A stretch of 64,000 bases of DNA from Candidatus Enterovibrio escicola (lineage in GTDB: Bacteria; Pseudomonadota; Gammaproteobacteria; Enterobacterales; Vibrionaceae): contig NZ_NBYY01000009.1 in NCBI RefSeq assembly GCF_002464935.1, positions 186,001-250,000 of the forward strand. Direction: 5' to 3'. The translations under genes were made by a program, and so were the position numbers. Under the pieces are notes generated by a model, which did no database searches, was not told the origin of the DNA, and saw only the letters and a list, made by a program, of their open reading frames with translations. Every line of letters starts with the position of its first letter. Positions within the stretch are counted from its first letter, which is position 1. Positions 15,828 to 46,917 of this stretch are shown in pieces.

Positions 15828-15939
15828 CTAACACCCTGAAGTATTTTTCTACAAAACTTGAGTTTAAATCTGAAAAGCTACACTTTCTAATCAAGTTGAT
15901 AATGCCATTCATTTTAAAGAAATCGAATGATGCTTAAAT

Positions 15940-16110: not shown

Positions 16111-16124
16111 GCATAAACGTGATT

Positions 16125-16490: not shown

Positions 16491-16821
16491 TATACCAAAA
16501 TAACTTGTTATTGATCAATATCAGAAGTCGTAGATACGTTCGGTTTGAGATAAATCCTCATAGGAGAGATCAGTTTATTTCACAAGGATCTAACAATAAA
16601 ATTATCGCAATAACACCCTCCTATAGGTTAAGTTTACTGACGCAACACTTAATCTTATCCATTTTTGATGGAACTCAACACCTACAAAGGGATAAATTAA
16701 TCCTGACATACAGGATAGATAGGTCTCTAATAACCTTTCCAAGGTCATCAAACTAATTGAGGCTAAATTAAACATTCTACTCTAATAAGTAGACAATAAA
16801 CAAACTATAGGAAAATTAACC

Positions 16822-23446: not shown

Positions 23447-23503
23447 GCTTTCTTTTTTAATATCGTTACAAATTCCTCATCATTAACACCACGGAATAAC
23501 CTA

Positions 23504-23541
23504 CTGTAGATAAACACAGTTTGTGCTGTTCATATCAACAA
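23504..23541 (+). promoter_or_regulatory. two LexA-type (SOS) boxes left from the lost recN gene
   Basis: CTGT-N8-ACAG is exact at 23504-23519 (TACTGTAGATAAACACAGTT with flanks). A second site, CTGTTCATATCAACAA at 23526-23541, differs from CTGT-N8-ACAG by one base. Consensus in enterics and vibrios is CTGT-N8-ACAG. recN in E. coli has more than one LexA box and lies directly after nadK. The boxes now precede only a start-less recN stub. Confidence 0.65.
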
Positions 23542-23550
23542 AATAATAAA

Positions 23551-23609
23551 TATCGGTGTTTAAGTCTACCACTGCACATTACAATTCAGAACCTTACGTT
23601 TGTAAAATT
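23551..23609 (+). pseudogene. recN: 5' stub of recN (DNA repair protein RecN), cut by IS982
   Basis: Directly after the SOS boxes one frame (23566-23607) reads LPLHITIQNLTFVK. This aligns without gaps to the RecN N-terminus (E. coli MLAQLTISNFAIVR): T, I, N and V are identical and most other positions are conservative. The codon at the expected start is CTA rather than ATG. At 23610 the IS982 right repeat begins, so only about 14 codons remain and the ABC ATPase body is gone. The match is short; the location after nadK and behind LexA boxes is the stronger evidence. Confidence 0.55.
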
Positions 23610-24395
23610 AACCTCAGATCTGCATAAGCGCTTGCTTATCAAGCAAGTCATCTTGATGCTCGGCTTCTTTGGTTAAAATGAATACGCGATAAACCCCGCC
23701 AGCAAATTGGCTATAAAGCTAATACAACTACGGTGCCGAAGATGCTAGATTTTAGATATGTTTTTTAGTTGTTCAAAAACGGTTTAAATAATCAATTGTT
23801 TCCGGAGCATTAGGCAATCACAAAGTTTCATCACTTTGGATTTCATATTTTTTACACCCGTTATCAGTATAACTCCCTTGTGTGCAAGTTCCCGCTCCAA
23901 TGGATCAGAGATATAACCTTTGTCTCCGTATAAACACCCCTAAAGTTCGTCAGTCATTTCCGGTACAAATTTCCTATCATCCACATTAGCCATCGTCACT
24001 TTGACTGAGATAATACCACCTTCGTCATTGATAATGAGGTGTAATTTGAAGCTGTAAAACCACCCCATCGTTTCTTTTCCTAGTTTCTCAGCACCTTTAA
24101 AAACCTGATATCTGAAAATGAGGAGGTTTTAACAAACCTGTAGCTTAGACGAATCAACGAAGGTCATCCCTGTCGGTTTTGCCTGACGGTGAGTGAGGTA
24201 AAAGCAAAGTAGAACCAGAACACCTTGCATGCGCATGAGCATTCACGTGTAGCTGACTCATTCAGGAAATTCGTTGCTGAGGCAGAGGAAAACAAAATGG
24301 ATGTAATAGGCTTTGAAGTCTCGATATCTAGATTGATGTAAAGCTATCACTATCGTCATCACTTCACTAACTGCCAGGCGAAAAGGCTTGTTTGA
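23610..24395 (-). mobile_element. IS982-family element, right part lost
   Basis: Begins with repeat AACCTCAGATCTGCATAAGC at 23610 and continues on the minus strand through most of a decayed transposase as far as the N-terminal PFRLAVSEVM-like region at about 24390, where it stops abruptly against ISAs1 sequence. Several stops and frameshifts. Confidence 0.78.
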
Positions 24396-24411
24396 ATAGC
24401 CTTCTATTATC

Positions 24412-24550
24412 AAATATGCCGCCAAACATGGAAAATTACCACACGCTCTCTGACATTCTACTATTAATCGTTTGTGGTGTTATTACAGGATATGCAGGTT
24501 GAAGAAGAATAAAAGACTTTGGTACCGATCATCTCAATTAGCTCAAATTA
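24412..24550 (+). mobile_element. ISAs1-family transposase N-terminal fragment
   Basis: Plus-strand frame reads MPPNMENYHTLSDILLLIVC, GVITGYAG, a stop, then RRIKDFGTDHLN and KLRMG. This matches the H-repeat/ISAs1 N-terminal domain (H.L.DILLL.ICAVI.GAEGWE.I..FG..HL..L). About 45 codons survive. Confidence 0.65.
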
Positions 24551-24559
24551 AGGATGGGT

Positions 24560-24657
24560 CCCTCCGTTAGGTAAAATAAACGACAAAGTGATCGGTACAT
24601 TCATTGAATGTGAGTATTACCTTTAAATCATAATAAACCCATTAAATACATGACCTG
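24560..24657 (+). mobile_element. IS1-family right-end fragment
   Basis: Contains CGACAAAGTGATCGGTACAT (HDKVIGTFIE-like InsB C-terminus) and ends with the repeat ...CCCATTAAATACATGACC, matching the right end of the IS1 copy at 28085-28822. The rest of the element is missing. Confidence 0.6.
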
Positions 24658-24684
24658 ATGAGAAGGGAGGTGCTCTCATCACGG

Positions 24685-24935
24685 ATACACGCAAAACATG
24701 AAACAAAAGATAATGAAGCTTTCGGCTAGTCTAATGCTGAGAAATCGATTCATCATCGAAACAACCTTTGATTAACTTAAACATATATCCCAAGTAAGGC
24801 ATTTGTGACACTGAAGTTGTATGAGTTTAATGGTCAACCTAATTGCTAAATTCATTACGTATACGTTCCAACCACAAAACCTAGCCTTAAAATTATTCAG
24901 CTTGAAAAAGCCAAGCTTATACGGATTTGAAGTTT
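24685..24935 (+). mobile_element. IS982-family 3' fragment
   Basis: Decayed C-terminal transposase sequence: ATGAAACAAAAGATAATGAA (the 'kkxETxSDE' segment), LMLRNRFIIET-like and LLA.FI.Y.FQ-like pieces. It is more diverged than the other copies and ends without a clear inverted repeat. Confidence 0.55.
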
Positions 24936-25046
24936 CTTATTTCGACTCTCTAACCAAAATAGACATAAATGCACACTGGTAAACAGCTAATAAGGGAGGT
25001 AGGACTCAATGATAAACTTGAATTCGCGCAATGAAAGTATATCTCA

Positions 25047-29190: not shown

Positions 29191-31755
29191 CTAAATTAGT
29201 GCCTTCAAACGATACAAAGCGTCTAATGCTTGGCGTGGGGTCAAATCATCTAATTCTATCTCAATTAAAGCTTTTTCTGCATCGCTTAGCTCCATAATCG
29301 CATATAATTGTGATGCGGGGAGATGTATATCTTCACCTGTTACCACGTTATATCCACTAGCTTCGAGTTGTCGGAGCTTGTGTTTAGCACGTTGAATCAC
29401 TGTTTTTGGCACTCCCGCTAGTCCTGCTACAGCAAGACCATATGATTTGCTAGCTGCCCCTTCCTGAACAGCATGCATAAATGTAATTGCATCACCGTGT
29501 TCGATTGCATCAAAATGTACGTTTACTAGGCCACTTATCTGACCAGAAAGCTCTGTCAGTTCGAAATAGTGTGTTGCAAATAAGGTCATGGCATTGAGTT
29601 CTTCTGCCAACCACTCCGCACTCGCCCATGCTAGCGATAAACCATCATAAGTACTTGTTCCTCTACCAATTTCGTCCATGAGGACGAGACTGTTTTCAGT
29701 GGCATTATGAAGAATATTAGCGGTTTCTGTCATTTCGACCATGAAGGTAGATCGCCCCGATGCCAAGTCGTCGGATGCACCGATACGGGTGAATATACGG
29801 TCAACCGTTCCTAAGGTTACCGATTTTGCTGGTACATATGAACCAATATGTGCTAACAAGGTTATCAACGCTGTTTGACGCATATAAGTTGATTTACCAC
29901 CCATGTTAGGTCCCGTAATAATGAGCATACGACGGTTTAGATCTAAAATGGTTGGGTTAGCAATAAACGGTGCATTGAGTACTTGTTCTACCACTGGATG
30001 ACGCCCATCCTTAATATTGATACCACGAGTGTCTGTGAATATGGGTCGACAATAATTAAGCGTTTCTGCACGTTCTGCTAGGTTTGCTAACACATCCAGT
30101 GTAGAAAGTGCATCTGCTGCAGATTGCAACATTTCTAAATGTGGTAACAACTTATCAAATAGATCTTCCCATAGTTTTTTCTCAATCGCTAACGCTTTAG
30201 TTTTCGAGTTAAGTACTTTATCCTCGTGCGCTTTTAATTCGGGAATAATATAACGCTCAGCGTTTTTTAGCGTCTGTCTACCCACATAATGTGGGGGCAC
30301 TAAATGACTTTGACCACGGTTAACCTGAATATAAAAACCATGTACTTGGTTGTAGCCAACTTTTAAGGTATCAATGTTATGGAGTTCCCGTTCCCGTTGC
30401 TCGAGTTCTTCAAGAATACGGGTTGCACCCTCGGCCAATTCACGCCAGTCATCTAATTCTGAGTTATAACCTGTCGCTATCACACCTCCATCACGAATCA
30501 CCACTGGAGGTACTTCTACAATTGCCTCTTCCAAGAGGTGTGTTAGTTTAGGCATAGGTGCTGAAGCGTATTTCAACGGAGTAATAGAGTCGTCAGAGAG
30601 TTCATCAAGCAGCATTTTTATCTCTGGAAGTTGTTGCAAGGCACTGCGGAGTTTAGCTATGTCACGAGGGCGTGCTGAACGTAGCGCCAAGCGCGCCAGA
30701 ATGCGTTCCATGTCACCGATAGGGTTCAAGGCACGGGTAAGCTCAACATACATACCGGATTCTTTAAGCACGTCTATAGCATCCAATCGTTCATTGATGA
30801 TAGTGCAATTACGGACAGGCTGATGGAGCCAACGTTTAAGCAAACGGCTACCCATGGGGGTAGTGGTTTTATCTAACACGGAAGCTAAAGTGTTCGCAAG
30901 CCCACCAGATAGATTTTGGGTAAGCTCTAAGTTACGACGGGTTGCCGCATCTAGTATCACCGATTGAGCTTTATTCTCTTTCACCAAGGTACGAATATGT
31001 GGCATCGCAGTCCGTTGAGTATCTTTGATGTATTGCATCAAACATCCGGCAGCAGCAAGTCCGAGTGAACACTTTTCCACACCAAAACCTACTAAATCTC
31101 TAGTGTTGAATTGCTGGTTGAGCTGCCGTTTGGCTGTATCGAGATCAAATTCCCAAATAGGTCGACGTCGGCTTCCTTTACACATTCCGATGAGAGAAAT
31201 ATGGGTAAAGTCTTCTGGATATAATAATTCTGCAGGCTGTGTACGTTGAAGTTCCGCCCTCATTTCTTCTTCGGTATTTGGTTCGCTCAACAAGAAACGA
31301 CCAGAGGTGATGTCAAGTGTGGCATAGCCAAAACGGTCTCCGTGCATAAAAATAGAGGCAAGCAGGTTATCAACACGTTCACTAAGTAGTGCTTCATCTG
31401 AGACAGTTCCTGGCGTAATGATACGTACCACTTGTCGTTCTACCAGACCTTTCCCGATTACCGAATCTCCAATTTGCTCACAAAGTGCTACGGATTCTCC
31501 CATTTGAACTAAACGTGCTAGATATCCTTCAACTGCATGGTAGGGGACACCAGCCATCGGTATAGGTACACCTGCAGACGCGCCGCGTTTGGTTAGAGAA
31601 ATGTCGAGAAGTTCTGATGCACGCTTTGCGTCATCATAAAAAAGCTCATAGAAATCACCCATTCGATAGAAAAGAAATTCTTGAGGATGTTGAGCTTTTA
31701 ATTTTAGGTATTGTTGCATCATAGGTGTGTGGTGTTCTACTACTTGTTCTGTCAC
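29191..31755 (-). CDS. mutS: DNA mismatch repair protein MutS
   Basis: Recognises mismatches and small loops and recruits MutL. 854 residues (E. coli 853). Mismatch-binding domain I has [15 protein letters not shown] with the Phe-x-Glu region and [14 protein letters not shown]. The ATPase has Walker [15 protein letters not shown], then [35 protein letters not shown] and ATHYFELT. The C-terminal helices are present. No lesion, so mismatch repair appears retained although neighbouring recombination genes are lost. Normally next to rpoS, here about 11 kb away. Divergent from pncC, 108 bp apart. Confidence 0.97.
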
Positions 31756-31863: not shown

Positions 31864-32364
31864 ATGGAATATTTATTAAAATTGGCCATGCAAATTGGCA
31901 TTTTTCTGAGAAATTCAGGTGAGATTGTGACAACTGCAGAGTCTTGTACCGGTGGCGGTATTTCGTATATACTGACGGAAATTGTAGGGAGCTCGGCATG
32001 GTTTGAACGTGCATTTGTGGCTTACAGCAATGAGGCTAAATATGAATTGCTCGGGGTAAAGGAAGAAACACTAGTAACTTGTGGCGCCGTCAGTGAAGAA
32101 GTGGTAGCTGAAATGGCATGTGGTGCAGTGAGCGCCTCCAATGCAGATTATGGCCTTGCCGTAAGCGGCATTGCTGGTCCCCTAGGTGGTAGTGAAGCCA
32201 AACCAGTTGGCATGGTATGTTTTGGTTGGGCAACGAGGTCGGGAGTGGTGACTGAAACTAACCTCTTTAAGGGAGATAGGTATGTGATTCGTCGTAATGC
32301 CATCGCTCACAGCTTATGCGGATTTCAGTCCTATCTTGAAAACCAACAATCAGAGCGAGAATAA
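31864..32364 (+). CDS. pncC: nicotinamide-nucleotide amidohydrolase (CinA C-terminal type)
   Basis: Deamidates NMN to nicotinate mononucleotide, recycling NMN made by DNA ligase. 166 residues, the stand-alone CinA C-terminal domain of enterics and vibrios. Signature TTAESCTGGGISYILTEIVG, then VAYSNEAKYELLGV, GAVSEEVVAEMACGA and AVSGIAGPLGGSEAKPVGMV. In relatives recA starts within about 100 bp after this stop; here IS91 sequence begins at once (32366). Confidence 0.93.
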   Translation: MEYLLKLAMQIGIFLRNSGEIVTTAESCTGGGISYILTEIVGSSAWFERAFVAYSNEAKYELLGVKEETLVTCGAVSEEVVAEMACGAVSASNADYGLAVSGIAGPLGGSEAKPVGMVCFGWATRSGVVTETNLFKGDRYVIRRNAIAHSLCGFQSYLENQQSERE

Positions 32365-32365
32365 A

Positions 32366-32855
32366 ATACATATCAATTAACCACTATCGGGAGCAAATAA
32401 ATCTAAGAAGACACCGTGCTTGGGTAGAAGAGACTAACCAACTCCATCCCTCTCCCACAAAACACACATTTTAAGAAATGAAGACCTGCTACCTCTTAGA
32501 AAAGATCTGCTACAGCTGGATACGTTTGGTGTCGCTCATCATTACATCTACCAAGTCGCCTGCTGACATAGCTATCACTTCCATACCCCTTCTTACAAGC
32601 TCGCTATAACTTCAAGGCCATAAACCCAAAATGCAAACGCTTCTAATTGGAGTGATTATGGAAAGGAATACGAAGTTATCTAGACAAAATTAAGACAACT
32701 TGCCAATAGTTCACTCTAGGAAACAGGTGAACGCCTATTTTGACCATACTTTCCCGTATATAACATTTTCCTCATTTCAGACAATCTTTCCCCTTAGAAC
32801 TAAAGTTAACTCTATGTTACCCTTGACCGCAACCCAAGCATTTAGGTAAGTGGCA
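32366..32855 (-). mobile_element. IS91-family remnant with internal deletion
   Basis: 32366-32620 matches the 3' end of the IS91 copy at 41355 (shared block ATATCAATTAACCACTATCG, then the region encoding SYTKRISYVEF). 32720-32855 matches its 5' end (AACGCCTATTTTGACCATAC...GTAAGTGG). The middle is mostly deleted. The element abuts the pncC stop on one side and IS6 on the other. Confidence 0.65.
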
Positions 32856-33352
32856 AAGCCCTTTGCTGGAACAGCAGGCTCGTCGAATAAAAAACCTGTC
32901 GTCTCTTCGTGGTGGATGAACGAAACATATATCGACGTAAAAGGTAAGTGGAAGTATTACTATTTGGCTGCTGATAAGTTTGATAATGTCAATAATTCTC
33001 TACTGTGCGAACACAGTGATGAGAAAGTAGCTAGAACCTGCTTCAACAAGGACATTAACCATAACGGTTTACCTAGAAAGGTGGTAATTGATAGGAGTTG
33101 TACCAATTTGCTAGCGCTGCATAATATAAACATCCAACTCTGCTTTACAGGAAGGATGCTCAACGTGATTGAAATGCTTCAAGTTAAGTATTTGAATAAC
33201 TTGCTCGAGCAAAGCTACCGGAAAGTAAAGGTAAAATGCATCAGTGCCTAAGATGGAAATCAGATAAAGGAGTCACCGCAACACTCACAGGCAGCCTAAT
33301 TGAATCTAAAAATTAGTATGTTTCTACTTCTGTATAACTTTGCGACAAAATC
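32853..33352 (+). mobile_element. IS6-family transposase remnant
   Basis: Frame 32850-33251 encodes NKKPVVSSWWMNETYIDVKG, KWKYYYLAADKFDN, FNKDINHNGLPRKVVIDRS, RMLNVIEMLQVKYLNNLLEQ and YRKVKVKC, the IS6 DDE domain. The canonical DETY is NETY, so the first catalytic Asp is lost. The N-terminus and left end are missing; the right end finishes near TTTGCGACAAAATC, an IS6-type repeat. Confidence 0.78.
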
Positions 33353-33354
33353 TT

Positions 33355-33465
33355 TTTTGGAGGGAACGTATAAGCAACGGATCAAGCAAGCAGCTTGATC
33401 ATAAAACGCACACCACTTCAGTGCCGAAGAATGCCCTATTTGGGATATATTCTTAGTTATTATCT
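33355..33465 (-). mobile_element. fragment of a diverged IS982-type element
   Basis: GGAACGTATAAGCAACGG and CTTCAGTGCCGAAGAATGCC resemble the 3' region of the element at 63685-64000 and, more loosely, the other IS982 copies (GTGCCGA.AATGCTCGATTTG). About 110 bp survives. Confidence 0.4.
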
Positions 33466-34001
33466 GAATTCAAGCATAACTGAATGAACAAACCTAAAAA
33501 TGGTCCCAGATGAAAATAGGAGCTTCCCTCAAATAGGGATCAATCAGGGTCTAGGAAATGTTTAGGGTTCAACCCGTCTACCGTTATTTTTAAAGAAATA
33601 TCATTACCAGATTGGTTGTAAGGTGTCGCACTTCAGACTCGGATGCAAGGTCAACTACTATCTCGATGAGAATATGTGTCCAACAGACAATATATCCTAT
33701 CTTAATCTACACTTGCTATCCAGATCTTCTGGATACAAAAACCACAATGTATATATTTATTATGCAAAATATCATTGACTAACTGGAGTTGGCCTAATAT
33801 ATAAGCCATATTGAAAATATTAAACTCATACAAATAATAAATGCATGAGTGAATACCTGTCCAAAGGACACTAAACAAAGGAAAATAGTAGTTAAAAATT
33901 CCTTTAGTAGTTTAAGATGCCATGTAAATTTACTTCGTGCAGATATGCAGACCGAACAAACTCAATAAAAAGAAAGTTGTAATTATTCAAGGAATAGAAA
34001 A
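33466..34001. other. csrA upstream region
   Basis: AT-rich and without a recognisable gene. In Vibrio lysC precedes csrA; I see no trace of it. The csrA ribosome binding site (AAGGAAT, 33989-33995) lies at the end. No confident promoter call. Confidence 0.35.
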
Positions 34002-34214
34002 ATGCTTATTTTGACTCGTCGCGTAGGTGAAACGCTGATGATTGGTGATGAAGTAGCCTTGACTGTACTGGGTGTAAAAGGCAACCAAGTACGTATTGGT
34101 GTGAATGCACCGAAAGAGGTATCAGTACACCGTGAAGAAATCTACATGCGTATCCAAGCTGAAAAAGGTAATGCTGCTCCGTCTATTGGTCATTTTTATG
34201 CAAAACGTATTTAG
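34002..34214 (+). CDS. csrA: carbon storage regulator CsrA
   Basis: Small RNA-binding dimer that blocks or stabilises mRNAs with GGA motifs, controlling carbon flow, motility and virulence or host traits. Residues 1-55 are essentially the family consensus ([52 protein letters not shown]), including the L4/R44 RNA-contact residues. It is 70 residues long, several more than the usual 61-65: the tail [15 protein letters not shown] may result from loss of an earlier stop. An intact tRNA-Ser gene follows 200 bp later, the usual Vibrio neighbour. Confidence 0.95.
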
Positions 34215-34332
34215 AATTTCCAAAACCTCGATCCAGACAAGCAGTCTTTATGTTATTGTCTAATAGCTAATTTAAACAGAGATCAATGAATTTAGTACGC
34301 AGTTCATTATCAATCTGTCTAGGAAATGAACA

Positions 34333-34349
34333 AACACCTTATAGGTGTT
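34333..34349 (+). terminator. weak hairpin after csrA
   Basis: AACACCT and AGGTGTT form a 7-bp stem with a 3-base loop. Only a weak U-run follows (GATTTCTC). It lies between csrA and the tRNA-Ser promoter, where a csrA terminator would be expected. Confidence 0.35.
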
Positions 34350-34369
34350 GATTTCTCAAGATAAAGTGT

Positions 34370-34397
34370 TTGACATATCCGTGGCTCGAAGTAATAT
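34370..34397 (+). promoter_or_regulatory. sigma-70 promoter of tRNA-Ser
   Basis: TTGACA at 34370-34375 (exact -35) and TAATAT at 34392-34397 (-10) with 16 bp between, 15 bp before the mature tRNA 5' end. Confidence 0.7.
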
Positions 34398-34412
34398 GAC
34401 CATCCGCAAGTC

Positions 34413-34505
34413 GGTGAGGTGGCCGAGAGGCTGAAGGCGCTCCCCTGCTAAGGGAGTATATGGTTTATAGCCGTATCGAGGGTTCGAATCCCTCCTTCAC
34501 CGCCA
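34413..34505 (+). tRNA. tRNA-Ser (anticodon GCU)
   Basis: Class II tRNA with an encoded CCA end. Acceptor strands GGTGAGG and CTTCACC; anticodon loop CTGCTAA with arms CCCC/GGGA-type pairing around it; a long variable arm (TATATGGTTTATAGCCGTAT region); T arm GAGGGTTCGAATCCCTC. Anticodon GCT reads AGC/AGU serine codons. In vibrios a tRNA-Arg(ACG) run follows; here IS5 begins at 34539 instead. Confidence 0.95.
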
Positions 34506-34538
34506 TTTTTACCTTGCCTGTTTTTCATATATCAGGGT

Positions 34539-34912
34539 GGCGTTATTGATCAAATCAGACCCATAATGCACTGATCCAAATCTTCTTTACAGTCTTAATT
34601 TATCTGTTGGCAGACAGGCATACCGAGTCTTATGACTTTATTCATTACTTTTACATTTGCTAGTGCTTCAGCAACTTGAGCATTGTAATCACGAAGAGTA
34701 AGTCTACTAGGGCTGAGTAACTGGTTTATATCGAAACGTTGCTGTCTCTTATAATGCGCGTTTCTCATAATCCCTATCCTTTTTCCAATCCACCAATTAA
34801 TCTTCTTTTAACGCCTTTACAGCTTGATTTCTAGGATGCACTTCCCAGTCTCCCGTATTGCTTAGAGGTGGAATACTGGGTGTTATTCCTTTGTTTTTCA
34901 GTACGTGATGAC
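34539..34912 (-). mobile_element. IS5-family (IS903-like) partial element
   Basis: Left repeat GGCGTTATTGATCAAATCAG at 34539, then the 3' part of the transposase gene on the minus strand (ends like those of 686-1657) up to the GNTPSIPP..N.GYWE region at about 34880. Cut off near 34912 where IS66 sequence begins. Frameshifted. Confidence 0.72.
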
Positions 34913-34929
34913 GTAATCGTTCACCAGTC

Positions 34930-35925
34930 CCCCATTGAAAAGAAATAAGTGATAATCATATCCCACTCGACAATTCCTATTGAGTGATCTTCTCAGTCTA
35001 CCAAACTGACTTCATGAAAAAAAAAGCATTATTAAAATAAACTACCCACGGTAGAATCACTAGGTTCCGAGCAAGCCAACACACTCATCCGTGAATTATA
35101 GAACAAGCTTTGTGAGTAATGAAAATAGGTTGCCTGCTAGTTCAAGGAACTCATCAGGCTCTCCATCATCAGACACCCCCGCAGCGAAGAACGCGCAAAA
35201 AAATCTCAAAAAACCAGTAAGCGAGTTCAAAGAAACTGATTACATCGTGTGTTATCAGCCAGATACCTGCTACACCCAATACGGTGGGAATTTTATTCCT
35301 AATACGGAGTTTACCCATTATCATTAAGTCTTTGAGTTACCCAAAGCATCGTTGGATATTACTAAATATCAGTTATTTTATGGTCGGTGCCAGCACTATA
35401 ACCATACCGTCCGAGCCAATTTGCTAGATGATGTCCCATCAAGTCAGTTAGGCCCTCGGTTGCTTAGCAACATTGCCGTTTTATCTGGGCCAATATCACC
35501 TAAGTGTCCATAACATCCAGCGCCTTTTTATGGATCAATACGGTACGTATTTTTCTATCGGACTGATTAGTTAAGCCCGAGGACGAGTCAGTAGTATGTT
35601 AACACCGTTGCATCAGGCGCTGAATGACCCTATAAAACAATCTGCTGTTATTCATCTAGATGAAACAATGCACAAACGAAATAGGGAAACGGCTACCCGA
35701 TGGATCTCACTCCTCAGTGGTAGTAATGCGGTATATCAGACCATTCGTTATCGTCGTAATGAGGAAACAGCAAAAGAACTGCTGGATGAACAGTGCCACG
35801 CGATAGTGATAACCAACCAATGTGGTAGTTATAACTGGCTAGATCCTACGCGACACCAGTTCTGTTCAGTTCCATTCACCTGTTCTGTCCGTGGTGGAAA
35901 CTTGTAAGAAACATGAGCTATCTGC
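34930..35925 (+). mobile_element. IS66-family transposase remnant
   Basis: Three broken frames in order. 35091-35327 carries the Ser/Lys-rich N-terminal linker. 35330-35500 reads ELPKASLDITKYQLFYGRCQ then SQLGPRLLSNIAVLSGP, the IS66 zinc-finger and YGPRL region. 35596-35907 reads AVIHLDETMHKRN, RWISLLSGSNAVYQTI and VITNQCGSYNWLD, the DDE core. Stops and small deletions separate them. The C-terminus is missing. Confidence 0.75.
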
Positions 35926-36034
35926 ATTGGATGTCATTAGTAATATAGTGTCATCGATAATCGGCAAGCAATCCTATCTCAACGTGTTTAATCTCATAAA
36001 TACCTAATCAAACCACCTCTGGTGAACGCTTACG

Positions 36035-36827
36035 GTCAAAAACGATTTCAATAATAAATCATTTCTAGAGCATTAGGAGGCTCTAAAGTTTCATCACTTT
36101 GGGTTTCATCTTTTTTTCACACCCCTTATTAGTATCACTCCTTTGTTTGCAAGTTCCCGCTCCAACGGATCAGAGATATAACCTTTATCTCCGTATAAAC
36201 ACTCCAAAATCTCATCAGCTATTTCCGCCACAGGATTTCTATCCTCCACGTTATCTGTCATCACTTTGACTGAGATAATACCACTGTGGTCATTGTGTAA
36301 TTTAAAACCTTAGAACCATCCCATCGTGCCTTTTCCTCGCTTCGTGATACTTTTAAAAACTGATATCTGAGGATGCGTAGGTTGTGATAAACCTATATCT
36401 TAGACAAATCAACGAAGGCAATCCCTGACGGTGAGTGAGGTAAGAGCAAAACGGAACTAGAACACCTTGCATGAACTTACAGATTCGTGTGTAGTTAATT
36501 AATTCAGGAAATTTATTGGTGAGATATCGGCAAAAAAAGTGGATGTAATAGGTTTTAAATCTCGATATCCCGATTGATAGAAAGCTCTCATTATCGGTAT
36601 TACTTCGCTAACTGAGAGATGATAAAGTTTGTTTCTTTGTTTGTTTGAACATCGAAAGAAACCAAGTGTTTTCCCATGCAGGGAGGACAGTCTGGCAGAT
36701 GTCATCGACATCAACGAAAATAACGTTGAAGTTATTCATGCCCAAATCCTTATGCAGTTACTAGTTTATTTCAAACGAGCAGATGGCGACTTTAGCATTT
36801 AGTTAATTTCTTATGCGCAGTTCAGGT
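36035..36827 (-). mobile_element. IS982-family element, 3'-truncated
   Basis: Minus-strand copy from the GTTTTTGACC-type C-terminal region (36035) to the left repeat (complement AACTGCGCATAAG, ending about 36827). Recognisable pieces include PLERELANKGVILI-type, TDNVEDRNPVAEIADE-like and the FDHVDD N-terminal area. Many stops. Together with the plus-strand copy at 39820-40313 it flanks alaS in inverted orientation. Confidence 0.75.
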
Positions 36828-37003
36828 GACGCTAGAAAGTTCCTGAAGAGCAAAGTGCTATTCCTCAAATAAACCGTGTGGTTTAGTCTCGGTTGTATCC
36901 TGTAGACGAAAATAACTTGAAGATACCATGCTATTTTAATAGTGATGGTCACTCCAGAAAATTAGGGATTTTGTACGAAAAACCACTTATCTAATACATA
37001 ACC
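36828..37003. other. spacer after alaS
   Basis: No gene or clear terminator seen between IS982 and the alaS stop codon. Confidence 0.3.
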
Positions 37004-39583
37004 CTAGAGACGTTCAGATAGCCATACTGTCACAGAGTCCAGCGCCATTGATAATGCGCTAGCATTACTGCCACCCGCTTGTGCCATGTCAGGACGGCCA
37101 CCACCTCTACCACCTACTTGCTTGGCAACCATGTTCACCAACTCACCCGCATTTATTTTACCAACAATATCGTTGGTAACACCTGCAAGCAACGTGACTT
37201 GGTCGTTAGTTACGTTACCTAGGAACACTACACCACTACCCATCTGGTTTTTCAGATCGTCAATCATGGTTCGCAGCACTTTTCTATCAAAACCATCCAA
37301 TCTACAAATCAGGACGTTAACACCCTTAATTTTCGTCAACTCAGTCATAAGACTTTCACTTTTCTGTACAGCTACTTTTTCTTTTAATTGTTGGATTTCT
37401 TTCTCAAGCACTTTAGCTCGATCCTGATATTTATTTATCTTCTGAATAAATTCTTGCTGTTGTCGATAGAAAGCATTTTCAGCACCCTGCCCTGTTACTG
37501 CTTCAATACGGCGAATACCTGCTGCAATACCGCTTTCTGATATAATCTTCAGCATACCAATATCGCCAGATCGACTCGCGTGCGTACCACCACAAAGCTC
37601 GATAGAAAAATCACCTATAGTCAAAACACGTACCTGTTCGTCATATTTCTCGCCAAACAGGGATATTGCACCTTTTTTTTTCGCGGCGTCGAGGGACATC
37701 AACTCGGTCGAGATGTCATTATTCTGACGGATTTGTGCATTCACTAGTTTCTCAACGGCACGCATTTCATCCGGATTAACAGCTTCCGGATTAGAAAAAT
37801 CAAAACGTAATCCCTCCTTACGAACCAAGGAACCTTTCTGTTGGACATGTTCACCCAATACAACACGCAGAGCTTCGTGAAGCAAGTGGGTAGCGGAATG
37901 GTTAAGTGCAATTGCCAGACGGTGCTCAGCATCTACTTTTGCCTTTATGGTGTCACCCACGGATAGATTTCCGTCTACTAGATTGCCGTGATGGCCAATC
38001 ACTGAACCGTATTTCTTGGTATCAATAACTTCGAACCTACCAGCATCAGTGCTGAAAAAACCTACGTCTCCACTTTGGCCCCCTGATTCTGCATAAAACG
38101 GTGTTTGATCCAAAACAATCACTGCTTCGTCAGGCATTGAGAGGGTCTCAGTGTACATACTACCCACGGAGATATATGTGATCATGCCATGACTCTCTGT
38201 CGTGCCGTATCCCATAAATTCAGTGTTGTTGTCAACTTGTATAACTAAGTTATGGTCATTGCTAAATTGGCTCGCTTCACGAGCATGTCGACGTTGTTCT
38301 TCCATCGCAGTTTCGAAGCCTTTTTCGTCGATGCTCAATCCGCGCTCACGTGCTACGTCGTTAGTCAGATCTATAGGGAAACCATATGTATCGTAAAGTT
38401 TGAACACGCTTTCGCCATCTAACACACCACCTTTAATATTTTCCAACGCATCGTTCAGAATTGCCATACCACGGTCAAGGGTACAAGCGAAGCTTTCTTC
38501 TTCAATTTTTAGCACTTTCTCAACTAAACCTTGCTCTTGTTTCAGTGCTTCACCCGCCATACCCATAACTTCTACAAGGGGACCAACCAATTTATATAAG
38601 AATGCGCCATTTACACTCAGTTTATTTCCATGGCGAACTGCGCGACGAATAATACGGCGTAACACATAACCACGACCTTCGTTTGATGGCATTACTCCGT
38701 CTACAATCAGGAATACACATGAACGAATATGATCGGCTACAACCCTCAGAGATTGATTAGACAAGTCTTCATGGCCAATCACGTCAGCTGCTGCTTTAAT
38801 TAACTTCTGAAAAATATCTATCTCATAGTTAGAATTAACGCCTTGAATAATAGCAGCAATACGTTCAAGACCCATACCCGTATCTACGGAAGGCTTAGTC
38901 AATAATTCCATTGTGCCATCGGCATGACGGTTATATTGCATAAATACGTTATTCCAAATCTCAATGAAGCGATCTCCCTTTTCTTTTGTAGAACCGGGAG
39001 GACCACCCCAAATATGATCACCATGGTCAAAGAAAATTTCGGTACACGGGCCACAAGGACCTGTATCACCCATTTGCCAAAAGTTATCTGACGTATAAGG
39101 AGCACCTTTGTTGTCATCAATACGTATGATACGGTCTGCTGAAACACCAATCTTTTCGTTCCACAATGAAAACACTTCGTCATCTGTTTTGTAAATGGTT
39201 ACCACCAGTTTATCTTTGGGTAGTTTCAAAACATCGGTTAAGAATTCCCACGCGTAACTAATAGCACCTTCTTTGAAATAGTCACCAAAACTAAAATTAC
39301 CTAACATTTCAAAGAAAGTGTGGTGACGAGCAGTAAAACCCACGTTTTCAAGATCGTTATGTTTACCACCTGCACGAACACATCGCTGAGCTGTAGTAGC
39401 ACGTGTATAATCACGTTTCTCGATACCAAGGAAGCAATCTTTAAACTGGTTCATACCTGCGTTTGTAAACAACAGTGTTGGATCATTTACAGGTACGAGC
39501 GAAGAACTCGGCACGATTTTATGCCCTTTACTTTCAAAGAACTTAAGAAACGCTGTGCGAAGCTCGTCAGTACTCATGTACAT
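37004..39583 (-). CDS. alaS: alanyl-tRNA synthetase
   Basis: Charges tRNA-Ala and edits mischarged Ser/Gly. 859 residues (E. coli 876). Class II motifs: [14 protein letters not shown] (motif 1), [20 protein letters not shown] (motif 2) and GMGLERIAA (motif 3). The editing site has [13 protein letters not shown] (HxxxH) and [15 protein letters not shown] (CxxxH). A coiled C-Ala oligomerisation domain ends [14 protein letters not shown]. The start codon used opens [20 protein letters not shown]; the second Met (MSTDEL, 39577) is equally possible. Normally follows recA-recX. Confidence 0.96.
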
Positions 39584-39615
39584 TGGATAATCCTGAAGTT
39601 AATGTTAAATCGCAT

Positions 39616-39792
39616 TTAGTGCGACCGACTAGAGTCATTTAGTACCCATTGTAACCAACCAGACCAGTTGCGGAAAGAGGTGGAAAGAAGTTTCCGTGCT
39701 GTACAAGCCATAAGAGGTGGATGTTTTTGTTTTTCAGGAATCAATATTCCTTTTTTAGAGGAAGATGACAGGGGTAATTCATTTACGATGCC
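39616..39792 (-). pseudogene. possible C-terminal remnant of recX
   Basis: Upstream of alaS on the same strand an open frame between two TAA stops ends at 39616. It contains IPEKQKHPPLMA and, near the end, SFRNWSGWLQWVLND. RecX C-termini carry an EKQK-R-x-R-F-L-M-x-RGF segment and end with (D/E)QI-like helices, so EKQK...LMA and the QWVL ending are suggestive but far from conclusive. recX is the expected gene at this spot. The 5' part is missing, replaced by IS982 from about 39820. Confidence 0.35.
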
Positions 39793-39819
39793 TTACTGTC
39801 AATTTAAATCTTGGTTAGC

Positions 39820-40313
39820 TAAAAAGTATCACAAAGCGAGGAAAAGGAACGATGGGGTGGTCCTACGGTTTCAAATTACACCCTATTATCAATAACTACA
39901 GTGGCATTATCTTACGTCAAAGTGATGACGGATAACGTGGATGATAGAAAACCTCTGGCGGAAAGGGTTAACGAGCTTTGGGGGTGTTTATGCGGAGATA
40001 AAGGTTATATCTCTGATCCATTGCAGCGGGAACTTGCAAACAAGGGAGTGACACTGATAACGGGTGTAAAAAAAGATGAAACCCAAAGTGATGAAACTTT
40101 GGATCCGCCTAATGCTCCGGAAATGATTTATTATTGAAATCGTTTTTGATTAACTAAACAACACATACCAAATCGAGCATTCTCGGCACCGTAGTTGTAT
40201 CAGCTTTATGGTCAACTTGCTGGCGGGGCTTATCGCGTATTCATTTCAACCAAAGAATCCGAGCATAAAGATGACTAGGTTTGATAAGAAAGCGCTTAGG
40301 CAGATCTGAGGTT
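39820..40313 (+). mobile_element. IS982-family element, 5'-truncated
   Basis: Starts in the KRGKGTMGW segment (AAAGCGAGGAAAAGGAACGA) and runs to the right repeat AGATCTGAGGTTA at 40313. The readable part is VKVMTDNVDDRKPLAERVNE, LWGCLCGDKGYISDPLQREL, ANKGVTLITGVKKDE, then frameshifts. This is among the better-preserved C-terminal halves. Confidence 0.8.
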
Positions 40314-40411
40314 AGTAAAAAAAGACCAACCGAGCAGAACTTTATTGAAAGAGGGGATGAATAGCTTAACGTCTTTCATCGACATGACTTTTGAACAATC
40401 AGCATCATCCG

Positions 40412-40432
40412 TCTCTCCAAAGACAGGAGAGA
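40412..40432. other. short perfect hairpin
   Basis: TCTCTCC and GGAGAGA arms (7 bp) around the loop AAAGACA. No U-run on either strand. It lies in otherwise featureless DNA (40314-40639) between IS982 and IS5 fragments. Confidence 0.4.
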
Positions 40433-40639
40433 TATTGATTAAACTTTAATCTTTTTGTATTTCGTATAGGACGATATGAATTCAGTATACACCCTTACTA
40501 GATTTTGAATGTGAGGTAGATTAAACGAAACAGAGCAATCTTCCTCATAGAGAAAATCTTAAAATATCAACCCCTTTATATACCCTCTCTTATCGGGTAA
40601 TGGTTTACGGCGAACTTACTGAATTTTTTCGAAAGAATG

Positions 40640-40915
40640 GGCGTTGTTAATTAAATCAAGCCTAAAAGTATACGACGAAGGTGAATGGAAAACACGTAAA
40701 AACGTGTAAGGAGAAGCAGCGTATCTGACGCAAACTTCATCTTACCGTTGATGTGTCTACTCATGAGGTTATTGCTGAAGCAGTTAGCCTAGTTTCTGTG
40801 GGAGACAATGAGGTTTTACCTATATTTCTTAACCCATTACGACGAAAGATATAGCAAGCCAGTGCTGAAGGAGTCTTTGATACAAAAGCATGTAACGACG
40901 TACTGTAAAATACCA
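40640..40915 (+). mobile_element. IS5-family (IS903-like) internally rearranged fragment
   Basis: Begins with repeat GGCGTTGTTAATTAAATCAA, then jumps at the shared GCCTAAAAG into the middle of the transposase (KVYDEGEWKTRK, STHEVIAEAVSLVSVGDNEV, LNPLRRK) on the plus strand. In other copies this repeat is at the 3' end of the gene, so an internal rearrangement has joined it to the DDE part. Ends about 40915. Confidence 0.65.
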
Positions 40916-40941
40916 AATTTACATTCAATGCAATCTTTTTA

Positions 40942-41065
40942 TACTACAACACCGCCCCAAATAGTTGCGGTGTTGTAGTGTATGAAAATACAGAAACAAA
41001 AGAACCTAGTTTGACATCTTCCCCTACGTTCGCGCTTCGTGACTATCGAAATAGAGGATGTAAAA
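40942..41065 (+). repeat. strong hairpin plus second stem, possibly an IS200/IS605-like relic
   Basis: CTACAACACCGC (40944-40955) and GCGGTGTTGTAG (40967-40978) form a perfect 12-bp stem with an 11-base loop. About 33 bp later ACATCTTC and GAGGATGT (about 41011-41057) can close a second, larger structure; GAGGATGT-A is reminiscent of IS200/IS605 right ends. No transposase coding is left. The hairpin has no U-run after it on either strand. Confidence 0.35.
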
Positions 41066-41084
41066 TGCGTTATTATTTATATGT

Positions 41085-41345
41085 ATAGGGTCTCAACAAA
41101 TCAAGGCAATAATCATAACGTTACCGAGCTTCATAAACTAGAAAGCCCGCTTAATGAACTGCTGGAACAAGGCGTATAGCTGTTATTGGTTCAAGCTATA
41201 GAAGCCGAGGTTTAATCCTTGCTCGATAATTTTACATCACTCCAAACTAACGGAAAGCAGGGAGTGGTTCACAAGGACCATTTTCCTGAACGGCACCTAC
41301 AAACTTAGCTCGGTGACATGACCGTCAAAGTTCTAAAGGTTCGAG
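41085..41345 (+). mobile_element. IS256-family transposase N-terminal fragment
   Basis: Plus-strand reading gives ITELHKLESPLNELLEQG, LLLVQAIEAEV, SLLDNFTSLQTNGKQGVVHK, DHFPERHLQT, LGDMTVKVLKVRDR, with two stops. This is the IS256 N-terminal block (L.QAVEAELQ.FL...R..VVRNGY.PER.IQTGIG...V..P.VRDR). The catalytic part is absent. Confidence 0.72.
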
Positions 41346-41354
41346 ATAGAATAA

Positions 41355-42260
41355 AAACCATATCAATTAACCACTATCGGAAACAAATAAATCAAGGAAT
41401 ACACCATTCTTTGGGTAGGAAAACCGAACTAACTCCATCCCTTTCCCACAAAATACACATTTTAGGGGATTACGACCTGCTACTTCTTCGAAGAACTCTA
41501 CATAGCTGATACGTTTGGTGTAGCTGATCATTGCATCTACCAAGTCTCCTGCTGCCCTCGCTGTCACTTGAAGAGCATAATATCTCACTCGTTGAAATCC
41601 TTTAGGAAGAATGTACTGAACTAGCCTGCCAACAAATACCTGAGCATCCACTGTCTCATACGTTTTCAACTTCGTTTTATATCATTGATAGTAATACCTA
41701 ACTTGATGACAGTCATACCCAACTATCCTAGATAAGCCTATCGGCGGTGATGACAAATATTGGGTTAGGTATCGTATTAACCCTCGGTAGCTTTTGCTTG
41801 GGACTTTATTTTTACGACCCTTGTTAGGGTGGCATATAAACCATCAGGATAATTAATCCGTAAGGTTCTTATCACATATTGACGCGCAGAAAACTCAATC
41901 GCCATTAACTTCAGTAAGTATTTTTGCCAAAGTAATCGTAGCTGAGATAACGATAAATGCTGAAATCCTTTCCAATCCTAGTTTGAAGGAAAGAATGCAC
42001 TTTCAGTCAGTATCACATATAAATGCGATTGTAGTTACCATGATGACTATAGGCATAGATGACAACAATGACGGCGATTTAACAAGCATCAGTCTTAAAG
42101 TATGCCTGAATCAACTCTGATAATCAGGCGGACGCCTATTTTGACCATACTCTTCCGTGCATAACGCTTTCCACAGTGCGGATAAGCTTTCCCCTTACAA
42201 CTAAAGTTAACGTTATATTACCCTTAACCGAAACCAAGCATCGCTAAGTGGAAAAACCAT
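41355..42260 (-). mobile_element. IS91-family element, decayed
   Basis: Minus-strand frame 41367-41669 encodes FVGRLVQYILPKGFQRVRYY, ARAAGDLVDAMI and RISYVEFFEEVAGRNPLKCV, FCGKGMELV, the C-terminal part of IS91/ISCR Y2 transposases. Upstream sequence (41670-42260) is out of frame. Its outer ends are shared with 32366 and 32855. Confidence 0.72.
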
Positions 42261-42587
42261 TTTCTGAGCTTCCACACTTAAGAATCTTAACAAATCATGA
42301 ATAATAATAATCGGTATCATAGCGGGGATGACTGGATACGAATATGACCAAATTCGTAGTAAAAAGATGTTTAAAGAGAAGCAACTTCGATTGGATACCT
42401 TTCAAATTAATTCATACATTTTATCTGTTCAATCGTGCTAAATGTATCACAGAAAGGGACATGCCTTCAGCCCCACTACATATAGTTTCTAAGAGGAAAT
42501 TCCTAGATAAAATGAAACAAAAAGAGACCATAAGACAAGAAGGAATTTTCAAAACATCCAACATACGACCACAATTTAGATTGTTAA
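42261..42587. other. region downstream of rpoS
   Basis: A plus-strand 86-codon frame (42344-42604) runs into the rpoS 3' end. It has no recognisable domain, a weak ribosome binding site and AT-driven composition, so I do not call it a gene. No terminator is evident. Confidence 0.3.
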
Positions 42588-43562
42588 TCAATGTTTCGTA
42601 TTAAACAAAGATTCAATATTTAATCCTTGGTGAGTCAGCATATCACGAAGACGTCTCAGCCCTTCCACTTGAATTTGACGAACACGCTCGCGCGTCAAAC
42701 CGATTTCTAGACCAACATCTTCCAACGTTGATGCCTCATGGCCAAGTAACCCAAAGCGACGCGCTAGTACTTCTCTTTGTTTTGGGTTAAGTTCTTGTAG
42801 CCAATTCACAATAGACTTTTTCATGTCATCGTCTTGGGTTGTGTTTTCTGGACCGCCCTCTTTCTCGTCTGGGATGATATCAAGCAAAGCTTTTTCAGAG
42901 TCTCCACCAATCGGGTTATCCACGGAACCAATTCGCTCGTTAAGACGTAGCATACGGTTAACATCCGCAACTGGCTTATCGAGCTTCCCTGCAATATCTT
43001 CGGCTGTAGGTTCGTGATCAAGTTTTTGTGCTAATTCACGAGCCGTCCGCAGATAAACATTTAATTCCTTAACCACATGAATCGGAAGACGAATAGTCCG
43101 CGTCTGATTCATAATTGCACGTTCAATCGTTTGGCGTATCCACCACGTTGCATATGTTGAAAAACGGAACCCGCGCTCGGGATCAAATTTTTCAACAGCA
43201 CGGATTAATCCAAGATTACCTTCCTCTACGAGATCAAGAAGAGCTAGACCACGATTAGAGTAACGCCGAGAAATCTTAACCACCAGACGTAGGTTACTTT
43301 CAATCATACGTTTCCTAGCCTCTTCATCACCACGTAAGGAACGGCGGGCGTATAGCACTTCCTCTTCAGACGTTAACAATGGGGAATAACCTATCTCGCT
43401 AAGATAGAGCTGTGTTGCGTCTAAAGCCTTAGATGAAGCAGTAAGGGAAATTGACTCTTCAGCTTCCTCTGTTGATTCAATCTCATCTATCGATTCGATA
43501 TCTAGTTCCTCAATAACTGCATCGTCAACAACCAGATCTTCTGCGGTATTACTCTGACTCAT
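42588..43562 (-). CDS. rpoS: RNA polymerase sigma factor RpoS
   Basis: Stationary-phase and general stress sigma factor. 324 residues from ATG 43562 ([15 protein letters not shown]), which has GAGAGGTG upstream; an upstream in-frame Met at 43613 adds 17 unlike residues. Region 1.2 [17 protein letters not shown]; region 2 [40 protein letters not shown] and [17 protein letters not shown]; region 3 [10 protein letters not shown]; region 4 [34 protein letters not shown]. Intact. Downstream of nlpD, whose coding region normally holds the main rpoS promoter. Confidence 0.97.
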
Positions 43563-43616
43563 AGCACCTCTCAATTTGGCGTAGCAGCAAGACAGCACAG
43601 CAAAAACTGTCACAGT

Positions 43617-44531: not shown

Positions 44532-45150
44532 TTAAATTGAAACTCCTACCATCTAGGTAGACCTACACAAGAACTCATAATTTACTTGCAACAATAGAAA
44601 TGAAACATATAGCTTCTACTGCCAAGATTTCTATATTGTTACCTTTCCATGTCACTTTATAAAGCACTTGATCTGCTTTTCCAAGAAGAAAAATTAAAAT
44701 CCCTCCCTCCGCACGCGAATCACAAAGTACGAACGGAAACGCGAGTGAAGCTAATTACATCGAATGTCCATTTTCTTACAAAACCTTTCCACTACTCACC
44801 GTATTTTGTGAAGATATGATACCACAATAATTTGAAGAGGCAGGTGTCATCGAGCTTTATTGATGTCATGGCCAAGACATCTCTTTGTGAGTGTAGTGCG
44901 CTCTATCAAGAAGGGATAACAGCGAATATGGAGGCAGCAAACTCATCTTACGGGAAAACATCTTTAAGTTATGTTGGTATATAAGTTAAACTATTTGCAT
45001 CATTGCTTTGCAAGAATTTGGAGATGTTTAATTCGTTCCACTGAGTAAATATGCTCTACCGATCACGGACAGTACACATTAATAGATTATCACTTGTTTA
45101 CACAGTAACTGAAGAAGTGAATGTAAATAATTCACTAATGATAATCATAG
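44532..45150. other. surE-nlpD gap where pcm is expected
   Basis: In relatives pcm (protein-L-isoaspartate methyltransferase) fills this slot on the minus strand. I find no minus-strand methyltransferase motif here. A plus-strand PRHLFV at about 44872 resembles a Pcm segment but is on the wrong strand. No IS is recognised either, so the loss looks like old decay or deletion. Confidence 0.4.
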
Positions 45151-45897
45151 TTATTCCGTTGTGTTACTAACCCATTGAGACAATGCTTCTAAGCTATCGT
45201 ATGCTGTTAAATCGACATGCAAGGGTGTCAAAGAAACACACTTATTTTCAATAGCATAAAAATCAGTACCCCATCCTGCATATTGGGTCATCCTTGGAGG
45301 GCAAATCCAATAAATAGCCTTTCCTCTTGGGTCTGTCTCACAAATCATGCCTTCTGCGCGATGTCTTGAACCCAAATGCGTTACTTGCCAACCTGCTAAA
45401 TCATCCCATATACAATCAGGCACGTTAATGTTTATTATCCGATTCCTTGGCAAGGATTGCTCTCGATCACCCAATACAACTTTCTTCACTACTTGCGCTG
45501 CAGTATGAAAATGCATAGATCCACAAAGAGAGACAGCTATTGCTGGTGCACCAAGAAGAAATCCCTCTGTTGCAGCGGCAACCGTGCCAGAATATAACAC
45601 GTCATCACCCAAGTTCGCTCCGTGATTAATCCCAGTGATCACGAAATCGATCTTTTCAGAAATAAGCTCATTCATGGCTATATGAACACTATCTGTCGGT
45701 GTACCTTGCACGGCATATCTACGTTCACCAACCTGCCGAACACGCAACGGATTTTCTAGTGTAAGAGAGTTTGAAGCACCTGAGTGATTTCGATCCGGTG
45801 CAACGACGGTGATTGTTGCTATTTCAGACAGTGCGTCTGCCAGTATATTAATACCCTCTGCAAAAACACCATCGTCATTACTGATCAGTATATGCAT
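45151..45897 (-). CDS. surE: 5'/3'-nucleotidase SurE
   Basis: Metal-dependent nucleoside monophosphate phosphatase linked to stationary-phase survival. 248 residues from ATG 45897, chosen because [11 protein letters not shown] is the family N-terminus and GGAG precedes it; the frame extends 8 codons further. Conserved NDDG metal site at residues 7-10, [50 protein letters not shown] and [20 protein letters not shown]. Intact, in the ftsB-ispD-ispF-truD-surE-nlpD-rpoS line. Confidence 0.95.
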
Positions 45898-46244
45898 CAG
45901 GTTCTCCATCCATTGAATCATCTTATTTATTGATAATTTCTCGCATCACTGCAATAGCAAAGCACCCTACAGACAACAAAAAACTAATTGTTAACACTCT
46001 TTCATCCTGCGTCCTCGATATATCCTACAATAAAAGAATCAGTGACAGACGAGCATCGCGAGAACAGATTACAAGCAATAAATACTGGCGCTTGATCGAT
46101 AATATTTTTCTCTAACTTTCACGCTTACACTTATGTCAGCGATATCTTATCATCAGTCCTCGATCCCTAGATTTTCCATGAGAATTTACCCAACAACACA
46201 ATATCTTTGCTTACATTCAACACAAACTTCAAATATTCATAGCC
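45898..46244. other. decayed DNA between surE and truD remnant
   Basis: Nothing coding is recognised. It probably includes the unrecognisable 3' end of truD. Confidence 0.3.
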
Positions 46245-46905
46245 TTGTATAAACTACTCACTTAGCACATGACCATGTGTTAATTTCCTGTTCAATATGT
46301 GCTAACAACACCATATGAAACAGGTATGACCGCACTGCGGTCAAATAAAAACCACGTTTACTTTTGTTACGAATCCAGAATTTATCTTGTCCTAAAAATT
46401 GAGCAGTTATATAATTAGATGTCTTTTAATAAAGACATTAATCTACCAGAGAAATTTGGGATCACTTTGTTACGAATATCGTCAATAAGCAACCAGATGG
46501 GCGCGTTCTCATAAGAATCAGTGACGAGAAACGATTGCTAATTAAATCGATTGAACGCAGTTTTTGTTGTAAAGAGTGGCTGCTAAAATCACATCGACAC
46601 CTTTTTTGCATGGTATAGAACTCGCTTAAGTCTTGATCACTGTGTATCGGAAAGTACACACTAAACTGCTGTTTTGTCATTGCGGGTACTCTTTCAGTCC
46701 CGACCACATCACATGTTTTGCAAACTCATTCACGACAGATCTGGTATTTCCACCCATCTTAATGAAGAAAGATGAAAAAATGTTCTCCGTGTTCGACTGA
46801 TACAAAACCAAAAGTTTGACTTACAGAGAAATACTCTGACTTTTTTAAGCAGCAAGTTACTATTAGTTTACCAGGCTGGCAGCCCAACGAAGTCATTACA
46901 TTAGT
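46245..46905 (-). pseudogene. truD: tRNA pseudouridine synthase D, multiply frameshifted
   Basis: Normally makes pseudouridine 13 in tRNA-Glu. Family segments occur in order but in different frames on the minus strand: GKLIVTCCLKKSEYFSVSQT and FGFVSVEHGEHFFIF (N-terminal), SVVNEFAKHVMW, MTKQQFSVYFPIHSDQDLSE with KLRSIDLISNRFSSLIL (E. coli VTEQW...KLRLGALKGNAFTLVL), DIRNKVIPNFSG (VPNYFG), and RNKSKRGFYLTAVRSYLF with HMVLLAHIEQ (RNRKMRSFLLSAARSALF). It lies between ispF and surE as in relatives. The catalytic GxKD-type region is lost. A clear inactivated gene. Confidence 0.8.
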
Positions 46906-46917
46906 GAAGTCATTACA

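Follow-up and report, generated by a model that had tools for sequence, protein, structure and literature searches.

Gene Order at the pncC–alaS Locus

The window analyzed in this study is a 64,000-nucleotide stretch, positions 186,001–250,000 of contig NZ_NBYY01000009.1, from 'Candidatus (Ca.) Enterovibrio escacola' MJ02, a symbiont of the anglerfish M. johnsonii, and it lacks recA and the adjoining recX at the place where related bacteria carry them. The MJ02 genome comprises 2,645,619 bp in 39 contigs with a completeness of 99.73%; it was reported to have been sequenced at 58x coverage with 250-bp paired Illumina reads, to have been binned with MetaBAT, and to include four circular plasmids among its contigs (PMC6020299). 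In four relatives (G005, G016, G007, and G003), rpoS, mutS, pncC, recA, recX, and alaS occur in this order; in two others (G002 and G014), recA adjoins pncC, and the part of the contig retrieved showed no alaS. Among 79 named loci of other genera in which 3 kb or more precede alaS, recA lies no more than 2 kb upstream of alaS in 58, including 14 of the 16 classed by name as Vibrionaceae. The block found in the free-living relatives, rpoS/mutS-pncC-recA-recX-alaS-csrA, was taken as the ancestral order.

The window shows a different arrangement. On the minus strand, gshA and intact mutS (29191–31755; TIGR01070) are followed by intact pncC on the plus strand (31864–32364; PF02464, with TIGR00199 above its cut-off and NF002975 below). 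At the old pncC–recA junction lies a minus-strand remnant of an IS91-family insertion sequence (IS) with an internal deletion (32358–32868), of which repeat copies occur in the genome. It is followed by a plus-strand IS6/IS240-type transposase remnant (32850–33353; PF13610 DDE_Tnp_IS240 at 32850–33248), whose longer copies are 74–78% identical. Next come csrA (34002–34214, plus strand; PF02599, NF002469, and synteny), which lies downstream of alaS in relatives and here stands on the pncC side, and tRNA-Ser(gct) (34413–34505, plus strand; ARAGORN). Three further remnants precede alaS: an IS5-type remnant (34539–34912), which is a repeat of 686–1057 overlapping the IS5 transposase frame at 744–1334; an IS66 transposase remnant (35596–35907, plus strand; PF03050); and an IS982-type remnant (36034–36827, minus strand; PF13612 at 36109–36264). 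Intact alaS (37004–39583, minus strand), recognized by synteny and by 78% identity to G005, G016, and G007, is reversed relative to pncC and csrA. Beyond it are a second IS982-type remnant at the old recX–alaS junction (39822–40322, plus strand; PF13612 DDE_Tnp_1_3; main window copies 82–88% identical), an IS5 remnant, a second IS91-family remnant (41348–42266, minus strand; PF04986 Y2_Tnp) of the same family as that at 32358–32868 with 79–82% identity, and rpoS (42588–43613, minus strand; NF004207 and synteny), which is located beside mutS in relatives and here beside alaS.

Structure of the Joints

The preliminary description of this DNA, made from its letters and a list of open reading frames alone, had IS91 sequence begin 2 bp after the pncC stop at 32364. 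An IS91-family remnant does abut pncC, but it starts within the last one to three codons of the gene and supplies the stop; the repeat edge falls at 32354–32360, mostly at 32358. A 1650-base query gave 65 other matches listed in the genome, the best of which was 87% identical, and 21 of the 65 begin at query positions 5–11, which is the same edge. The edge therefore looks like the natural end of an IS91-type element. The family was assigned from a Y2_Tnp match on the sister copy (41370–41669), which overlaps the repeat at 41348–41569; an IS91 zinc-finger match in a sister locus was not used for this call because it falls outside the repeat itself.

On the alaS side, the truncated IS982 previously placed at 39820 was confirmed, with IS982-type sequence starting at 39822 according to DDE_Tnp_1_3 and the window repeats. 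A 58-codon frame at 39616–39792 had been considered a possible recX tail, and this assignment was rejected. The frame has no Pfam match and no similarity to recX, and the conserved noncoding leader of alaS (39606–39716, minus strand) aligns to the recX–alaS intergenic stretch of G005, 29 to 142 bases past the recX stop; in G016 and G007 the alignments are shorter. Above the leader, 39741–39821 aligned to recX and to the recX–alaS intergenic stretch no better than shuffled sequences did (199 to 232 of 300 scored as high). The supposed tail is an open frame in the noncoding leader of alaS.

Decayed insertion sequences mark the joint beside pncC and the two joints flanking alaS, as an IS-mediated deletion would leave. 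However, positions 32364 and 39820, previously read as the two breakpoints of one loss, are not the ends of a single deletion. The IS ends do not match (IS91 next to pncC and IS982 next to alaS), and csrA and tRNA-Ser, which had been overlooked, lie between them together with the inverted alaS; a single IS-bounded excision is thereby ruled out. The joints are instead products of a multi-step IS rearrangement. The IS982 remnants flanking alaS are inverted to each other, and 36036–36354 and 39822–40149 share 86% identity, a pattern that would follow from an inversion of alaS through recombination between the two. With the flanks fixed, the order of the block needs at least three inversions; by our reasoning, one inversion plus one transposition could serve as an alternative.

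It is also conceivable that the locus was misjoined at repeats or that recA sits on an unbinned contig. The assembly is a MetaBAT-binned Illumina draft (PMC6020299) and the flanks are rich in repeats, with 40 of 280 repeat candidates scored for the left joint. Nevertheless, no long exact repeat was found at the joints, and one contig of the near-complete genome spans the locus. No left-joint copy exceeded 87% identity among the matches listed, and the longest exact matches were 40 bp for the left joint, when set against the 11 best of the other copies, and 33 bp for the right joint, when set against only the rest of the window. With reads of 250 bp, exact repeats of this length make misassembly unlikely. 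Misassembly at the IS-bounded joints was looked for and not found by repeat comparison within the 39-contig draft. The sister genome described below, in 4 contigs, also lacks recA and retains a remnant of it, so that recA would have to have been missed in both species, and recN, lexA, ruvB, and intact recF are missing from MJ02 as well. Taken together, an assembly or binning artefact is very improbable.

Absence of recA From the Genome and Its Distribution in the Family

A RecA profile search with an E value of 0.001 gave no match in the whole MJ02 assembly, whereas all 14 control genomes were positive. RecA was present in 327 of 329 Vibrionaceae genomes by profile search; the two without it were MJ02 and 'Ca. 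Enterovibrio luxaltus' CC26 (G004; 4 contigs, the first of 1,604,691 bases), and two family genomes of only 1.0 and 1.1 Mb still have recA. When RecA of four relatives and RecX of three were searched against the window flanks (32200–37100 and 39500–42700) by tblastn and blastn, the matches were at chance level (E value of 0.3 or worse) and were discarded. RecX was found in neither MJ02 nor CC26 among five genomes profiled. Because the RecX profile is weak (8 of 14 controls positive), its absence rests also on the tblastn and blastn searches of the flanks.

The claim that recA is missing from between pncC and alaS is thus borne out by the locus comparison with relatives and by the flank searches. 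That the gene is truly gone is supported genome-wide, as no intact recA was found elsewhere in the 39-contig draft, and by the sister species CC26. MJ02 accordingly combines a near-complete genome without any RecA-family gene, an identified and disrupted ancestral recA locus, and the loss of further recombination genes, which is the pattern of recA loss in genome-reduced symbionts.

Two other disturbed recA loci were observed. In G003, of the same genus, an element of approximately 10.9 kb splits recA at about codon 173 (L122, G003:C6:58001-78000, 4561-16564). Within this element are a complete RecA of its own, sharing 79% identity with the G005 protein, and a protein of the phage-integrase type that barely passes the Pfam cut-off; the element resembles the island described in recA of Vibrio cholerae (PMC4405046). 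In a genome of another genus (G029:C38:52361-53145), recA lies in two overlapping frame pieces, perhaps owing to a sequencing frameshift.

Loss of Other Recombination and SOS Genes

Pathway genes were profiled in MJ02, CC26, and seven relatives. RecN was detected in neither MJ02 nor CC26 but in all seven relatives. nadK adjoins recN in 4 of 6 relatives' loci examined; at the corresponding place after nadK in the window (23447–25046), RecN is absent, and no recN remnant was matched by tblastn at an E value of 1. LexA was not found in MJ02 and is broken by a stop in CC26, while it is intact in 7/7 relatives (10 of 14 controls positive with this profile). Similarly, RuvB is intact in all seven relatives, is represented by two broken pieces in CC26, and was not found in MJ02. 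The RuvB-profile matches in MJ02 were judged to be RarA and other AAA proteins because their frame lengths equal those of such frames in relatives. For RecF, intact in 7/7 relatives, MJ02 has a single weak 51-position match with a stop, a scrap at most, and CC26 has none.

DinB is intact in both MJ02 and CC26, and MJ02 additionally has broken frames of the same family. An exact CTGT-N8-ACAG sequence, which we take to be the LexA-type box motif, is located between −35 and −40 upstream of dinB in 4 of 5 relatives. No exact box precedes dinB in MJ02 or CC26: MJ02 dinB is preceded by two-mismatch candidates at −79 and −148, and CC26 dinB by a two-mismatch box at the old place (−38). With lexA gone or broken and no exact box before dinB, SOS control looks dismantled in these symbionts, not merely uninducible, and dinB of MJ02 appears to be no longer under LexA control. 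The earlier suggestion that the cell lacks homologous recombination and SOS induction is therefore supported to the extent that such gene losses (lexA, recN, and ruvB not found, recF a scrap at most) and the missing exact LexA box can imply it.

Homologous recombination might instead persist through an unrelated recombinase or annealing protein outside the RecA profile. The genome was searched with the RecA profile, which would not detect RecT/Red-beta-type proteins, and mobile-element genes, reported to be abundant (PMC6020299), could be invoked in its favor. However, RuvB, RecN, and intact RecF are missing, and the IS copies among the matches listed have diverged strongly and show nothing to suggest homogenization. 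We regard such a substitute as highly unlikely.

Retention of RecBCD

At a distance of roughly 17 to 27 kb from the site of the missing recA, MJ02 retains recD, recB, and recC intact on the minus strand (5269–15315). recD (5269–7299) keeps its Walker A motif and scores above cut-off with NF008127 and TIGR01447; recB (7283–10843) keeps its helicase and nuclease motifs and scores above cut-off with TIGR00609 but below that of NF008128; recC (11917–15315) scores above cut-off with TIGR01450 but below that of NF008289. The motifs checked, those of the helicases and of the RecB nuclease, agree with the corresponding motifs in relatives. MJ02 thus shows the Buchnera-like state of intact recB, recC, and recD without recA, whereas CC26 does not show it fully because its recD is not intact.

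Nonsynonymous values (dN) were used for the divergence comparison, since synonymous sites were saturated for most pairs and dN/dS was unobtainable there; the rows of nlpD (MJ02 and G016), surE (G007), and pncC (G016) were left out. From MJ02 to G005, dN was 0.192 for recB, 0.184 for recC, and 0.222 for recD, similar to the 0.188, 0.165, and 0.249 of a free-living pair. alaS and mutS were accelerated in MJ02 (0.119 vs. 0.053 and 0.112 vs. 0.068, respectively), and rpoS, gshA, ispD, and surE were not. In simulations of 2% neutral substitution, recBCD acquired a mean of 8.5 stops, and none of 300 sets was stop-free. Among the matches listed, copies of the left-joint IS differ by 13% or more.

RecBCD cannot start recombination without RecA, but in Escherichia coli the enzyme continues to degrade linear DNA and to trim the ends of reversed forks, activities that would favor its retention. 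RecBCD of MJ02 may therefore be kept for RecA-independent work, most likely the degradation of linear DNA and the trimming of broken or reversed fork ends. Alternatively, the genes could be intact only by inertia and be the next to decay, as the loss of recD at its place in CC26 and the undated loss of recA in MJ02 might suggest. Against this, both lineages have intact recB and recC, the frames soon break under simulated neutrality, and retention of RecBCD has been reported in Buchnera (PMC5698493). We consider inertia unlikely.

Elsewhere in the window, pcm (44578–45059) and truD (45881–46908) occur as short pieces in different frames, as in decayed pseudogenes, between intact neighbors.

Probable Independent Losses in the Sister Species

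MJ02 and CC26 were reported as sister species (PMC6020299), and a small tree of RecB, RecC, and AlaS, from which pncC was left out, supported this with a bootstrap of 81 (AlaS alone gave only 0.25). Like MJ02, CC26 lacks recA, recX, and recN, has lost functional lexA and ruvB, and keeps recB and recC. Unlike MJ02, it has a 29-codon scrap of recA in place beside pncC, its recD is a frameshifted scrap of about 50 codons behind intact recB (L197, G004:C1:1408001-1426000, 8793-8937), and its gene content between pncC and alaS is different. In the stretches fetched (L112-L114, G004:C1:1198001-1258000), mutS was not found near pncC.

The recA scrap differs from G005 by 12 nonsynonymous differences at 66 sites (pN of 0.18 to G005, G016, and G007), and at these sites G005, G016, and G007 show no nonsynonymous differences among themselves. 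Between MJ02 and CC26, synonymous divergence has reached saturation (pS 0.75–0.78). The scrap is too little diverged for a recA that had been dead since the two species split, and the losses therefore look independent: CC26 probably lost recA separately, by decay in place, well after its split from MJ02. Independent losses also fit the separate transposon expansions described for the two symbionts (PMC6020299).

A single loss in the common ancestor, followed by different decay of the two loci, would agree with the sisterhood and with the shared lack of recA, recX, recN, and intact lexA, ruvB, and recF. It is at odds with the low pN of the scrap relative to the saturated synonymous sites, the short shared stem (0.04 vs. 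0.28–0.31), the still recognizable lexA and ruvB of CC26, and the differing pncC–alaS gene content. We consider one ancestral loss unlikely.

Proposed Course of Events and Significance

Taken together, these results suggest that 'Ca. E. escacola' has truly lost recA and recX through IS-linked rearrangement, leaving it without RecA-dependent recombination or an SOS response and with RecBCD kept for RecA-free work; we give this reading a probability of roughly 0.87. IS91, IS982, and other copies would have driven inversions and a deletion during a transposon expansion, either while RecA was still present or independently of RecA; the recA–recX pair is absent from the point at which pncC and alaS separated. 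In the resulting cell, dinB would be freed from LexA control, and RecBCD would serve the degradation of linear DNA and the trimming of fork ends. CC26 would have lost recA on its own and likewise kept recB and recC.

Several points weigh against this account. The MJ02 assembly is a binned draft, so that an unbinned contig could, at low odds, hold recA, and copies for comparison with the right joint were drawn from the window alone. The LexA and RecX profiles had weak sensitivity in the controls, and the further repair genes covered were limited to recX, recN, lexA, ruvB, recF, recB, recC, recD, mutS, and dinB. CC26 has a one-mismatch LexA-like box at −64 before dinB, relative G002 lacks the box, and the box counts carry no chance estimate. 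The dating in CC26 rests on 29 codons, at which the more distant G014 also differs from G005 by 5.5 nonsynonymous changes. Finally, the time spent under selection without RecA is judged from the age of the IS copies.

More tentatively, at somewhat short of even odds, we propose that two sister extracellular luminous symbionts lost RecA and SOS independently and that selection kept RecB and RecC in both, and RecD in one, for a RecA-free role such as clearing linear DNA or resetting broken forks. RecBC without RecD in CC26 would then be a natural minimal version. RecA is nearly universal, and these two are the only exceptions among the family genomes searched; they appear to capture two losses at different stages, and both bacteria are believed to pass part of their life outside the host. 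The pair offers a way to test if RecBCD performs a selected function in the absence of RecA, and if genomes cease to rearrange after RecA has been lost.

Comparison With Known Systems

Most DNA repair and recombination genes were reported as lost from these symbionts, with 2 left in CC26 and 3 in MJ02 compared to 11–12 in relatives (PMC6020299). As a guess, the 3 genes left in MJ02 could be those of RecBCD, and the 2 in CC26 those of RecBC. recA is not named in the main text of PMC6020299 or PMC6773444. The general loss of repair genes is already published, and recA loss in reduced symbionts is of a known kind; a useful detail is that RecBC(D) was kept without RecA in two lineages.

Buchnera and Blochmannia are intracellular, inherited symbionts with much smaller genomes. 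Both were reported to lack RecA and to have very few other recombination proteins (PMC1193525), and Buchnera was reported to maintain RecBCD without RecA (PMC5698493). MJ02 resembles both in lacking RecA and Buchnera in keeping RecBCD, whereas it differs from them in being extracellular, in its 2.6-Mb genome full of transposon remnants, and in its reported acquisition from the environment (PMC6020299; PMC6773444). RecA loss has also been documented in Serratia symbiotica SCc (PMC3213167). In the Calyptogena symbionts (Ca. Ruthia and Ca. Vesicomyosocius), recA was described as lost independently in related lineages, as it appears to have been in MJ02 and CC26, through frame decay followed by larger deletions (PMC3202245). 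The genomes of those symbionts were described as having no mobile elements or long repeats (PMC3202245), whereas the joints in MJ02 are formed by IS remnants.

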